From the IMG/VR virus record IMGVR_UViG_3300048919_000569, positions 1-36,925 of that record: 36,925 nt of DNA; one strand, 5' to 3'. The stretch is from a virus. How positions within the stretch are numbered: position 1 is the stretch's first letter; every line of letters begins with the position of its first letter. A program made the translations under genes and the position numbers. The notes under the pieces were generated by a model, which ran no database searches, was not told where the DNA came from, and worked only from the letters and a program-made list of their open reading frames with translations. This document shows positions 30,820-36,925 of the stretch, piece by piece.

Positions 30820-31189
30820 CCCAAATACAATTCTTCGAATATGAAGACATGTCACTTATCGCTGTTTCGGGAAGAAAAGTCAAACGCTAAAATCCTCAAA
30901 ACTCAAAAATCGTCTAAAGCCCTGAAACATATATTTTAAAATCCACTGATCCAAAGGACGATTTGTATATAGAATCCGCTTTGACGGCTGGTGCGACATT
31001 CATCGTCTGTAGCGACTGACATTTCGAGCATCCCGCCGTCCAGGCGTTCGGCATATCGATGATCAGAGCCGGAGATTTCGTGGCGGAATTGACGAGAAGA
31101 AGACAATCAACATGAGCGCCTATCCTCTCAGATTTTGATTTTTGCTATTGCTGCCTCTGCTAGCGGTAGCAAAGGTCAAAAGCAGACCA
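30820..31189. other. AT-rich gap downstream of fic, possible late promoter region
   Basis: About 370 bases, AT-rich around 30850-30970. One small - strand frame at 30914-31054 would encode 46 aa with a CSKC motif (MPNAWTAGCSKCQSLQ...), but it has no ribosome-binding site and the frame runs open upstream without a start, so it may be a gene remnant. No clear promoter was identified. Confidence 0.3.
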
Positions 31190-32326
31190 TTAGTCACGAA
31201 CGATCTGCAAAAGCGGCTCGAAACTGTAGAGCGCTGGCCGTCGACCGGCAGCAGGCTCAAGAGTCCGTATCAGCCCGCGTTCGGACAAGATGCGCGTGAA
31301 CCGGTGAGCGGACGGTCCAGGAATTCCGGATTTTTTGGTAAAAACGTTATTCCTGAAAACCGGACGCGAAAAAAGGAAGTCCAGAGCCGCTGTGCTCCAC
31401 TGCGATGTCAGGAGTTGCGGAAACTCTTTTTTCAGCTCTTCGTAAAGGTCGCGAATCCGTTCGGCTGTTGCCAGGTTTTTTTGCGCCTGGGATTCCAGGG
31501 CTTCAAGAAAGAAAATGATCCACTCGGTCCAAGCCCCCGACTTGGACACGTCACGCATAAGATCGATATATTCATCGCGGCGATCTTCAAAATAGCTACT
31601 GATATAGAAGTGCGGCGCGGAGATCGCTCCGGCTTTCCAAAGCATGAGGGTGATCAACATCCGCCCAATTCTACCATTGCCGTCCTTGAATGGATGCAGG
31701 GCTTCGAACTCTAGATGAGCGACTGCTGTCTTGATGAGAATCTGCCAGTCATCCGATTCGATGAATGCGAAAAGACGATCCATCCCGTCCTGAAGTTGTT
31801 CGGGTCGCATTGGCACGAAATGGACCTTACGGCGCATTCGATCTGCCAGATAATTTTGCTCCGTCTTATACTCGCCTGGGGATAGATGCGCGCCGCGACC
31901 GAAACCAAGAAGAACGCGATGCGCGCTTTTTACAAGAAAGCTCGACAGTGGCGCTCCTTGCTCCATACTGCGCTGGGCGGCTGACAGGGCGCGAGTGTAC
32001 AAAAAGACCTCAATCGCTTCATTACGATAGTGGCCACCCGTCTCGTCACCACTTTCCTCCTGATCGGCTTCATATCGCAACACTTCGTCGAGCGTACTGA
32101 CCGTGCCTTCCATACGTGAAGACACAACGGCTTCTTGATTTCTCAAGGGCGCAAGCAGAATCTCGCTATTATGCATGCTCTTGAGCATTTGATCGTAGCG
32201 CGCCAGAGCAGCGGATGCGGATGCCACCGGCGTAATGAGTCTGCCAGCATCGATGTGCCGCGGTGGAAACTGATCATAGTGATATTCGACCGCTTCAGAG
32301 AGGTCCAAGCCTGGGCGCAGCGCCAT
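31190..32326 (-). CDS. Fic-family AMP-transferase with inhibitory motif and winged-helix end
   Basis: A 378-aa protein. The Fic core has HPFKDGNGRIGR at residues 211-222, matching HPFx[D/E]GNGRxxR with the catalytic His. The N-terminal domain holds the inhibitory motif SSRMEG (Ser69, Glu73, Gly74), so it belongs to the class with self-inhibition inside the same chain, like Shewanella SoFic (similar length). The C-terminal about 80 residues look like a winged helix (AHRFTRILSERGLIRTL). It would transfer AMP from ATP to a protein hydroxyl. The target is unknown. Lower GC than the virion genes and isolated transcription suggest a cargo gene. The ATG at 32326 has a weak upstream site. Confidence 0.85.
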   Translation of the reverse strand: MALRPGLDLSEAVEYHYDQFPPRHIDAGRLITPVASASAALARYDQMLKSMHNSEILLAPLRNQEAVVSSRMEGTVSTLDEVLRYEADQEESGDETGGHYRNEAIEVFLYTRALSAAQRSMEQGAPLSSFLVKSAHRVLLGFGRGAHLSPGEYKTEQNYLADRMRRKVHFVPMRPEQLQDGMDRLFAFIESDDWQILIKTAVAHLEFEALHPFKDGNGRIGRMLITLMLWKAGAISAPHFYISSYFEDRRDEYIDLMRDVSKSGAWTEWIIFFLEALESQAQKNLATAERIRDLYEELKKEFPQLLTSQWSTAALDFLFSRPVFRNNVFTKKSGIPGPSAHRFTRILSERGLIRTLEPAAGRRPALYSFEPLLQIVRD

Positions 32327-32390
32327 TGTGATGTCCGAGTTTCAGGATTTTTGACGTACGAGCTACAATGTCATGCCTGATCACGGAGGC

Positions 32391-32565
32391 GTTGTCTATC
32401 AAGAATGGTTATTTTTGATAGACAACGCGGCTTGATGTACATCTGGATCACTCAAACCCATTTGATTTTCAAAATACCGTATTATTGATAGTCAAATCCA
32501 TTTGCGTATCACGCATGCGAGACAAACAAGTTTGTCTTTCAAAAAGCGGCAATTTTGAAAATCAA
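32391..32565. promoter_or_regulatory. Phased array of six 11-bp elements upstream of fic
   Basis: Six copies of TTG-N5-CAA start at 32392, 32415, 32462, 32485, 32532 and 32555: pairs 23 bp apart, repeated at exactly 70 bp. Sequences: TTGTCTATCAA, TTGATAGACAA, TTGATTTTCAA, TTGATAGTCAA, TTGTCTTTCAA, TTGAAAATCAA. The first pair is a perfect 12-bp inverted repeat with a 12-bp spacer. Unit 1 is 65 bases from the fic start. The exact spacing points to cooperative protein binding. It is not the FNR/FixK box, which has four central bases in a 14-bp site. Confidence 0.75.
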
Positions 32566-32593
32566 CCTCTTCTATGCACCGGATCGTTGTTCA

Positions 32594-32701
32594 TCAGGCG
32601 TGGGAAGCCACTTGAAGCTCTGTAAAGGCTTCTCGCATAGCCCATAGAATTGGCGTGGCGAGGGCGGCGCACCCGCCTCCTTCACGGCTTCTCCCCGCCA
32701 T
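32594..32701 (-). CDS. Possible 35-aa protein at the end of the early operon
   Basis: Starts at an ATG overlapping the preceding stop (TGATG) and ends ILWAMREAFTELQVASHA. Only the overlap supports it; the ribosome-binding site is poor and no family is recognised. The region also holds a GC-rich hairpin that could end the early transcript. Confidence 0.25.
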   Translation of the reverse strand: MAGRSREGGGCAALATPILWAMREAFTELQVASHA

Positions 32702-33282: not shown

Positions 33283-33444
33283 TTAATTGCGCGCCAGAAT
33301 GCGCTTGATGTCGTCCATGCAGGCCGATGCACCGCGGCCTTGCTGATACTGGTCGAGAATGCGGTGGATCGCCGTTTCCCGCTTCTTGCGTTCCGATGCC
33401 GCCGCCTTTGCCTGGTGGATCGCTTCTGGAATTGTGCCGGTCAC
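33283..33444 (-). CDS. 53-aa early protein, GTG start
   Basis: The GTG at 33444 overlaps the previous stop as GTGA and has GGAGGG upstream. The product is short, basic and helical (IHQAKAAASERKKRETAI ... DDIKRILARN). Codon use matches the surrounding operon. It fills the only gap between two early genes. No family recognised. Confidence 0.65.
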   Translation of the reverse strand: MTGTIPEAIHQAKAAASERKKRETAIHRILDQYQQGRGASACMDDIKRILARN

Positions 33445-33785
33445 GCCCCGCCCTCCAGAGCTTGTGCCTTCGCCTTTCGGTAGAGATGCAGAATGGAGGT
33501 GTGGTCGCGGCGCATGAAGCGGGCGATCTGCGGGTAGGTCTTGCCCAGCGCATCGCGAAAATGCACCACCATCTCCATCCGGATCCTCACAAGCCAGCGC
33601 GCCCGCACATCGCTGCGCACCAGATGCAGCGTGGCGTCGGGGTATTTCTGAAGAAGGTGACGCGCCGCGTCCGCCATGCTGTCACGCGCGCGGTATTCCA
33701 GCGGGCTGACAAGCCGCATGAAGCCGTCCACGCGATTGGTCTGGATCAGGGTGAAATTCAGCTGTGTCTGAGGATAGAGGCTCAT
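33441..33785 (-). CDS. DnaA domain IV-like DNA-binding protein
   Basis: A 114-aa protein whose residues about 65-106 match the C-terminal DNA-binding domain of DnaA: a helix with VVHFRDALGKTYPQIARFM and then RRDHTSILHLYRKAK, which corresponds to the DnaA signature (GGRDHTTVLHACRK-like) that reads the DnaA box. The AAA+ ATPase part is absent. It may bind DnaA-box-like sequences to direct or block replication initiation. It starts at an ATGA overlap with the preceding gene and lies within the replication-type early genes. Confidence 0.75.
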   Translation of the reverse strand: MSLYPQTQLNFTLIQTNRVDGFMRLVSPLEYRARDSMADAARHLLQKYPDATLHLVRSDVRARWLVRIRMEMVVHFRDALGKTYPQIARFMRRDHTSILHLYRKAKAQALEGGA

Positions 33786-36241: not shown

Positions 36242-36289
36242 ACAAGGAAACTAGTAAAAATTGGGACATCCGTCAACTAGTTTCCTTGT
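36242..36289 (-). promoter_or_regulatory. Early promoter with repressor operator
   Basis: A perfect 14-bp inverted repeat: ACAAGGAAACTAGT at 36242-36255 and ACTAGTTTCCTTGT at 36276-36289, 20 bp apart. On the - strand TTGACG (36276-36271) and TAGTTT (36253-36248) form -35 and -10 boxes with a 17-bp spacer, each touching one operator arm, so repressor binding would block the promoter. A further pair, CTTGTG (36285) with CACAAG (36299), extends toward the repressor gene and may serve autoregulation. Confidence 0.75.
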
Positions 36290-36325
36290 GTGCGTTTCCA
36301 CAAGTGTTCTGGTAGAAACTAAGCC

Positions 36326-36925
36326 ATGGGAATTATTGGCGAAAATCTGAAATCGATCAGGAAGATCAAAAATCTTTCGCAGGCGAAAGTTGCGGAACTG
36401 TCGGGTGTGAGCCAGCAGCTCATCTCGCAGCTCGAGACCGGCTTGACTGAAAAGACCACTGAACTTCCCGCCCTTGCCCAGGCGCTCGGCGTCAGCGTCC
36501 ACGAACTCGACCCATCCTACACGCCGGATGCGGAGGGCGTCCCCACCCTGATCGTGCCCTATCTCGCCTGGGTCAGCGCCGGCGCCATGATCCGCGATGA
36601 CATCGCCGACGAAGCCCTTGGCCTCATCCGCGTGGCGGATTTACCGGCCTCGGGAGACTGGATTGCCTTGAAAGTCAGCGGTGATTCCATGGACAGGATC
36701 TCCCCGCCCGACTCCATCATCTTCGTCGATCGCAACGATCGCAACCTCGTTCCCAATGGCTGCTACGTCATCTCGGACGTGGAAGGCAACGCCACCTATA
36801 AGCGCTACCGCTCCGGCCCCATGCGCTTCGAACCCGTCTCCACCAATCCACAGCACGAACCGATCTTCCCGGACAACGACCCCATCATCGTCGGCCGCGT
36901 CCGCCGCTCGATCATCAATATGTAA
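36326..36925 (+). CDS. CI/LexA-type phage repressor (XRE helix-turn-helix plus S24 peptidase)
   Basis: A 199-aa repressor. Residues about 5-62 form an XRE helix-turn-helix (LSQAKVAELSGVSQQLISQLE). The C-terminal S24 domain has a cleavage-like SAGAM at about 78, SGDSMD with catalytic Ser at about 120, and the lysine of TYKRY at about 152. RecA-stimulated self-cleavage would release the lysogenic state after DNA damage. It lies divergent from the early genes across the operator. The ribosome-binding site is weak (AACTAAGCC). The gene ends at the last base of the window. Confidence 0.9.
   Translation: MGIIGENLKSIRKIKNLSQAKVAELSGVSQQLISQLETGLTEKTTELPALAQALGVSVHELDPSYTPDAEGVPTLIVPYLAWVSAGAMIRDDIADEALGLIRVADLPASGDWIALKVSGDSMDRISPPDSIIFVDRNDRNLVPNGCYVISDVEGNATYKRYRSGPMRFEPVSTNPQHEPIFPDNDPIIVGRVRRSIINM

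Follow-up and report, generated by a model that had tools for sequence, protein, structure and literature searches.

A 30/40-bp lattice of dyads precedes one clade of SoFic-type genes and is probably an operator bound by SoFic itself

Introduction

CccR of Yersinia pseudotuberculosis is a Fic protein with a C-terminal helix-turn-helix (HTH) that represses its own gene via the inverted repeat AGATAATCAT-N26-ATGATAATCT (PMC9755527). It binds as a dimer in which the HTHs are about 70 Å apart (PMC9755527), and for this reason the two half-sites lie far apart, with a spacer of 26 bp. CbFic2 of Coxiella burnetii (PDB 8cil) also binds DNA through its HTH, taking random DNA at high affinity, and on DNA it changes its oligomeric state and turns from AMPylation to deAMPylation (PMC10628234). 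SoFic is a one-protein abortive-infection system, and how it is silenced and triggered is an open question (PMC12249575). For EcSofic, a small downstream antitoxin, AS1, has been reported (PMC12249575). Fic autorepression, as in CccR, and the role of SoFic as a defence gene are known already, whereas a lattice of sites in front of SoFic genes is apparently undescribed: in the open-access papers searched we found no description of the 30/40-bp lattice, of its conservation in one clade across phyla, or of its position before SoFic.

The DNA analysed here, referred to as the window, is a stretch of 36,925 nucleotides from a virus. It carries a fic gene that is preceded by a strictly phased array of short inverted repeats. 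We conclude that this array very probably consists of docking sites by which a toxic SoFic protein restrains its own gene.

Results and Discussion

Geometry of the array

A preliminary description of the window had placed six TTG-N5-CAA elements at positions 32392, 32415, 32462, 32485, 32532 and 32555, and these positions proved exact, as did the spacing of 23/47/23/47/23 bp with its 70-bp period and zero deviation. The six elements are one register of a larger and denser lattice. The strongest element of this lattice is the dyad CAA-N6-TTG, with the consensus AGtCAA-N6-TTGaCT, which recurs alternately 30 and 40 bp apart, and each TTG-N5-CAA element is the outer half of one dyad together with a weaker inner half-site of the 40-bp interval. 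The features are as follows.

32392..32565, no strand: putative operator array of three 34-bp TTG-N5-CAA-N12-TTG-N5-CAA blocks with an exact 70-bp period and a half-dyad at each end; lattice kept in relatives
32392..32425, no strand: block 1, TTGTCTATCAA-N12-TTGATAGACAA, its two 11-mers forming a perfect inverted repeat
32462..32495, no strand: block 2, TTGATTTTCAA-N12-TTGATAGTCAA
32532..32565, no strand: block 3, TTGTCTTTCAA-N12-TTGAAAATCAA
32423..32434, no strand: dyad CAA-N6-TTG, CAACGCGGCTTG
32453..32464, no strand: dyad CAA-N6-TTG, CAAACCCATTTG, 30 bp after the 32423 dyad
32493..32504, no strand: dyad CAA-N6-TTG, CAAATCCATTTG, 40 bp after the 32453 dyad
32523..32534, no strand: dyad CAA-N6-TTG, CAAACAAGTTTG, 30 bp after the 32493 dyad

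The pairing of the TTG-N5-CAA elements had been described as spanning about two helical turns. The fit to two turns is loose (23 bp are 2.2 turns), and dyads 30 and 40 bp apart describe the array better. We do not claim binding to one face of the helix, because 70 bp amount to 6.7 turns at 10.5 bp per turn.

Beyond the four dyads of the array, CAA-N6-TTG occurs just once more in the window. The element TTGNNNNNCAA is not enriched in the window as a whole (12 copies versus 10.6 expected from shuffles), and half of its copies lie within the 174 bp of the array. The array segment is AT-rich, with a G+C content of 37% versus 58% for the window. Importantly for its origin, the three 70-bp units share 18 of the 22 element positions, against only 12-18 of the 48 positions in the remaining sequence. 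Because the units agree inside the elements and differ outside, the array of the window is not a recent tandem copy, as the preliminary description had already argued from its unconserved inter-element DNA, and tandem duplication was rejected as an explanation for the window on account of this divergence.

The fic gene and its protein

The gene downstream of the array encodes a protein of 378 residues with the following features.

31190..32326, minus strand: fic gene, SoFic-type class II Fic AMPylase, 378 aa, with Fic_N and Fic (Pfam) domains and a C-terminal winged helix
32105..32122, minus strand: inhibitory helix motif SSRMEG, residues 69-74, at the class II position, matching (S/T)xxxE(G/N)
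31661..31696, minus strand: FIC motif HPFKDGNGRIGR, residues 211-222, intact, matching HxFx(D/E)GNGRxxR
31193..31405, minus strand: C-terminal winged helix, about residues 308-378, the proposed DNA-binding domain, from AlphaFold2, fold search and conservation

The protein matches the PADLOC SoFic profile over its full length (residues 14-377, E 2e-105). Its AlphaFold2 model has an overall pLDDT of 88.6, with values of 91-95 over most of the winged-helix segment and 85 at the C-terminus. In a fold search the best PDB matches of the model were 3zec, 3eqx and 3zcn (TM 0.82-0.85), and the predicted fold resembles that of SO_4266/SoFic of Shewanella, the C-terminal winged helix included. CbFic2 was a weaker fold match (TM 0.61); entry 7cb8, also from the fold search, is a Mycobacterium marinum Fic. 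The winged helix is conserved in the clade of array-bearing Fics. Judged from its sequence and predicted fold, the window fic belongs to the SoFic-type genes, with anti-phage defence as its predicted role.

The window gene thus shares with known SoFic defence genes (PADLOC SoFic; EcSofic, PMC12249575; SO_4266, PDB 3eqx/3zcn) the family, the fold and the class II inhibitory motif, as well as an intact FIC motif and the solitary position of the gene. It differs from EcSofic, which has AS1 downstream, in that the window fic and its relatives have no common neighbour gene. Among the neighbours of fic, a gene kept throughout that might act as antitoxin or regulator was looked for, and none was common to the 21 loci compared.

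Distances between array and gene were examined as well. In the window the nearest dyad lies about 97 bp from the fic start codon, whereas in most relatives this distance is about 30-60 bp (29-62 bp). A promoter scan of the window gave a single, weak promoter-like match, located between the array and fic, and a terminator scan found none.

Joint loss of fic and array in near-identical phages

Five phages are near-identical to the window, with flanks of 94-96% identity, and in all of them unrelated cargo replaces the segment that holds fic and the array, so that no array is present. The two therefore form one exchangeable cassette.

30910..32662, no strand: exchangeable cargo segment with fic and array; other genes are found there in the near-identical phages

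This observation bears on the possibility that the array is a control site of the phage itself, serving partition, replication or a switch between early and late genes, as raised in the preliminary description, or repressor binding. The array does lie in a prophage, between replication-type and packaging genes, as such a site might. However, its joint absence with fic from the five near-identical phages excludes a replication, partition or lysis-lysogeny site, and the array also accompanies fic in chromosomes and plasmids. We consider a phage control site to be highly improbable.

The segment itself is a moron site of variable cargo, flanked by the replication-type genes of the phage on one side and by terS on the other. 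Each of the near-identical phages (L112, L113, L114, L116 and L117) has different genes there, and one of them carries a weak DUF6731 match and a membrane-protein-like gene. It is possible that this site is a defence hot spot. The small protein encoded at 33441-33785 of the window, beside a DUF1376 replication-type gene, weakly matches Bac_DnaA_C, the DnaA C-terminal DNA-binding domain (E 1e-5).

Conservation of the lattice in front of related fic genes

The same lattice was found in front of related fic genes. Gap counts over 28 fic upstream regions gave 100 occurrences of CAA-N6-TTG, 79 of TTG-N5-CAA, 47 of TTG-N18-CAA and 30 of CAA-N12-TTG, and mostly 0-15 for other gap classes in the same regions. 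These counts are the unbiased measure of dyad frequency; the near-100% conservation of the dyad in the unit profile arises by construction, the units having been extracted by their dyads. The outer flank of the dyad is usually AGt/aCT among the relatives. In some lineages the distances are off by one base, with 39 or 41 bp for 40 and 29 bp for 30.

The lattice precedes fic in Rhizobium, Ensifer, Sphingobium, Pseudochrobactrum and Devosia, and also in Pelistega, Acinetobacter, Roseovarius and Verrucomicrobiota. Altogether, nearly all Fics with an identity of 48% or more to the window Fic have it upstream, in Alpha-, Beta- and Gammaproteobacteria, Verrucomicrobiota and Bacteroidota, in chromosomes and plasmids and not in phages alone. 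DNA similarity to the window stops at the fic coding sequence in all relatives except those belonging to the same phage. That the lattice persists where this similarity has ended, the DNA between its sites being too diverged to align, implies purifying selection on the spacing and the half-sites; the relatives thereby show the conserved spacing with diverged spacers that the preliminary description had proposed to look for as support for function.

Exact pairs of dyads at 30, 40 or 70 bp numbered 98 in 35 non-redundant upstream regions, with a mean of 0.01 and a maximum of 1 in shuffles. This excess also bears on whether the array could be a neutral tandem repeat that arose by 70-bp duplication. 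Near-identical 70-bp copies do exist in L028, L032 and L049, yet in the window and in most relatives the units differ outside the sites and keep an exact spacing, and phased pairs should be next to absent by chance. We give this explanation practically no credence. Duplication does seem to occur on top of the lattice: at L032:7500-8000, on a contig shared with L044, a SoFic relative is preceded by at least five near-perfect repeats of 70 bp, so the array appears to lengthen by duplicating its 70-bp period.

The distribution of the lattice was quantified with a score over four consecutive dyads (maximum 24; shuffles average 13-14). Scores of 19-24 were obtained for 35 of the 41 Fics that are at least 48% identical to the window Fic, and the number rises to 37 of 41 when L028 and L029 are added, whose start codons were mis-set and whose arrays are visible in the gap analysis. 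At 44% identity or less, none of 23 Fics reached 19 and none exceeded 16 (a few of the starts being uncertain). In a maximum-likelihood tree every array-bearing Fic falls in one clade with support of 100/100, and the array label requires 4 changes on this tree versus 18.9 in shuffles, which means that it is strongly clustered. The same fic gene without the elements, named beforehand as an observation that would speak against function, was not seen in close relatives; four clade members that are 50-63% identical to the window Fic (L067-L070) have a weak lattice only, and these count in the other direction.

As a held-out test, we used plasmid Fics that were absent from the earlier comparisons. 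All five plasmid Fics at 51-86% identity had the lattice, among them that of a Riemerella anatipestifer plasmid (Bacteroidota), with intervals of 40/29/40 bp. Two distant phage Fics had no lattice, and one Fic at 41% identity scored an ambiguous 17/24.

Camelimonas lactis (L015, L056) has two distinct SoFic genes in its genome, and both come with a separate array.

The repeats are unlikely to act as RNA

Short repeats directly upstream of a toxin gene are also a feature of ToxIN-type (type III) systems, in which the repeats work as RNA. It was therefore considered that the inverted repeats form a structured leader or a type III-like antitoxin of repeated hairpins. Every block is an inverted repeat, the position beside a toxin gene recalls ToxI, and inner-arm complementarity was above shuffles when all clades were pooled. 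When units were permuted only among rhizobia, the excess was gone (N5xN5 p 0.62, N6xN6 p 0.63), as it was when they were permuted inside single loci (N5xN5 p 0.48, N6xN6 p 0.88); it appeared only with permutation across clades. Moreover, the best-conserved dyads, spaced by 30 and 40 bp, do not form the arms of hairpins. This lack of covariation within a clade is expected if one protein sets one consensus for both half-sites, and unlike type III repeats the dyads behave as protein sites. The hairpin reading was disfavoured on these grounds and is very unlikely.

Arrays without fic

To what extent the pattern is confined to fic was assessed by genome scans. A three-dyad pattern with at most one mismatch, scanned in 25 fic-bearing genomes, matched exclusively at fic genes, the second fic of Camelimonas among them, and the reversed control gave zero. 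The exact pattern was found in 3 of 398 genomes of the order, one at a fic and two as orphans. In IMG/VR, 20 contigs contained the pattern versus 3 for the reversed control, and at least 11 of the contigs had an adjoining fic. The matches in L034, L035, L040, L050 and L052 lie inside long ORFs and were taken as chance. No DNA match of the array region to phages was found.

The two chromosomal orphans are in Rhizobiales genomes, at L055:1501-1622 and L054:1471-1631. The former stops some 25 bp short of a Macro-domain (ADP-ribose) gene in a genome with no Fic, and the latter lies upstream of an ABC permease in a genome with no close Fic; of the two genomes, G066 has no Fic match and G395 has distant Fic proteins only. 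Their congeners lack the orphan arrays, in keeping with remnants that lost fic cassettes left behind. Orphans in phage contigs whose records contain no SoFic are at L100:447-700 and in L103, at L102:3940-4060, at L104:3312-3400 and at L047:3723-3874. Those of L100/L103 and L102 precede DUF932 genes, and that of L047 precedes a PDDEXK_5 gene. The half-sites in L104, TGATCGnCAAA, are very near to the TGATAGACAA of the window. A winged-helix profile gave no credible match in the fic-free phages with orphan arrays, the best hit (E 0.001) being short and interrupted by a stop. The phage orphans might be decoys, remnants or sites of another protein.

A regulator distinct from Fic, encoded by the host or the phage, might instead bind the array and control fic and other genes from outside. 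In favour of this are the orphan arrays in genomes or records that lack a close Fic, one of them ending just before the Macro-domain gene and others in front of DUF932 genes. Against this, the array goes with the Fic clade rather than with the host, accompanying the same Fic clade in at least three phyla; it is absent before other Fic clades in hosts of the same order; the loci share no neighbour gene that could be a candidate; and the orphans are not kept in congeners. Control by such an outside regulator is unlikely.

An autoregulatory operator as the preferred reading

Taken together, we favour the view, with a probability of roughly 0.8, that the array serves the SoFic gene as an extended operator with many sites, at which the C-terminal winged helix of SoFic itself binds and fic is repressed. 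The evidence consists of the lattice and its phase, the spacing kept with diverged spacers, the restriction to one SoFic clade and the joint loss with fic, together with the intact catalytic motif and the winged helix in the predicted fold. The orphan arrays, the weak lattice in L067-L070 and the ambiguous Fic at 41% identity count against this view, as does the ~97-bp distance of the nearest dyad in the window, which, with the weak promoter-like match between array and gene, makes overlap with the promoter uncertain. The proposal of the preliminary description that the elements are a fic operator bound by the winged-helix end of Fic is strongly supported by the co-inheritance of lattice and Fic subfamily, the binding itself being a prediction.

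Each CAA-N6-TTG dyad would comprise two inverted half-sites resembling TTGnCTATCA, and the 40-bp intervals would hold the weaker inner half-sites. Fic dimers may bind adjacent dyads cooperatively through their winged helices and spread across the promoter and the 5' region. The alternation of 30 and 40 bp could mean that one dimer bridges two dyads. Once sufficient Fic protein is present, transcription of fic would be switched off, amounting to negative autoregulation of a self-toxic defence enzyme. In relatives with dyads about 30-60 bp from the start codon, the bound protein would block initiation. We infer each of these elements, namely binding by Fic, its cooperativity, repression rather than activation, and the bridging of half-sites by a dimer.

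Such an operator would resemble that of CccR in several respects. Both proteins are class II Fic AMPylases that carry an HTH at the C-terminus and, as toxic enzymes, need tight control, and in both cases inverted repeats before the gene itself would be the operator; the window fic shows inverted-repeat sites upstream of its own gene and a site pattern that is co-inherited with Fic. However, CccR has a single 46-bp palindrome with another half-site, whereas in the window many dyads follow one another at 30/40 bp in an open-ended lattice. Half-site and spacing thus both differ from AGATAATCAT-N26-ATGATAATCT, which makes this a different type of operator with a similar logic. CccR is, furthermore, a T6SS effector, in contrast to the SoFic-type defence gene of the window, and its DNA binding has been demonstrated, whereas that of the window Fic is predicted. 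CbFic2 is likewise a Fic enzyme with a C-terminal HTH, but it has no known cognate operator and its fold matches less well.

The behaviour of CbFic2 on DNA makes it conceivable that the array holds SoFic inactive. By this analogy many SoFic dimers would be kept DNA-bound and non-toxic, perhaps deAMPylating, so that the array would serve as a DNA antitoxin and release would be the trigger. We regard this as unlikely. If it were true, toxic SoFic would be freed when a phage attacks the host DNA or when the protein is displaced from the array, and the arrays of fic-free phages would be decoys against SoFic.

Returning to the array as an operator, a conserved cis-element limited to one SoFic clade provides a direct experimental handle, with a defined DNA ligand and natural variants in several phyla, and its spacing rule predicts in what way SoFic assembles on DNA. 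The lattice is also a sequence signature of this SoFic subfamily, and it points to phages whose copies without fic may interfere with SoFic.

Further repeats

Two other repeats were noted. At L049:8108-8330, immediately 3' of a Fic that has a frameshift and about 40% identity, three near-identical 70-bp repeats form a 40/30 lattice with a different half-site, CTCCTCAAA/TTTGAGGAG. In the window, a long inverted repeat, ACAAGGAAACTAGT...ACTAGTTTCCTTGT, lies at 36246-36297, just upstream of an XRE/S24-type repressor gene (36326-36925). Its sequence is unrelated to the array, and it is probably the own operator of the phage repressor.
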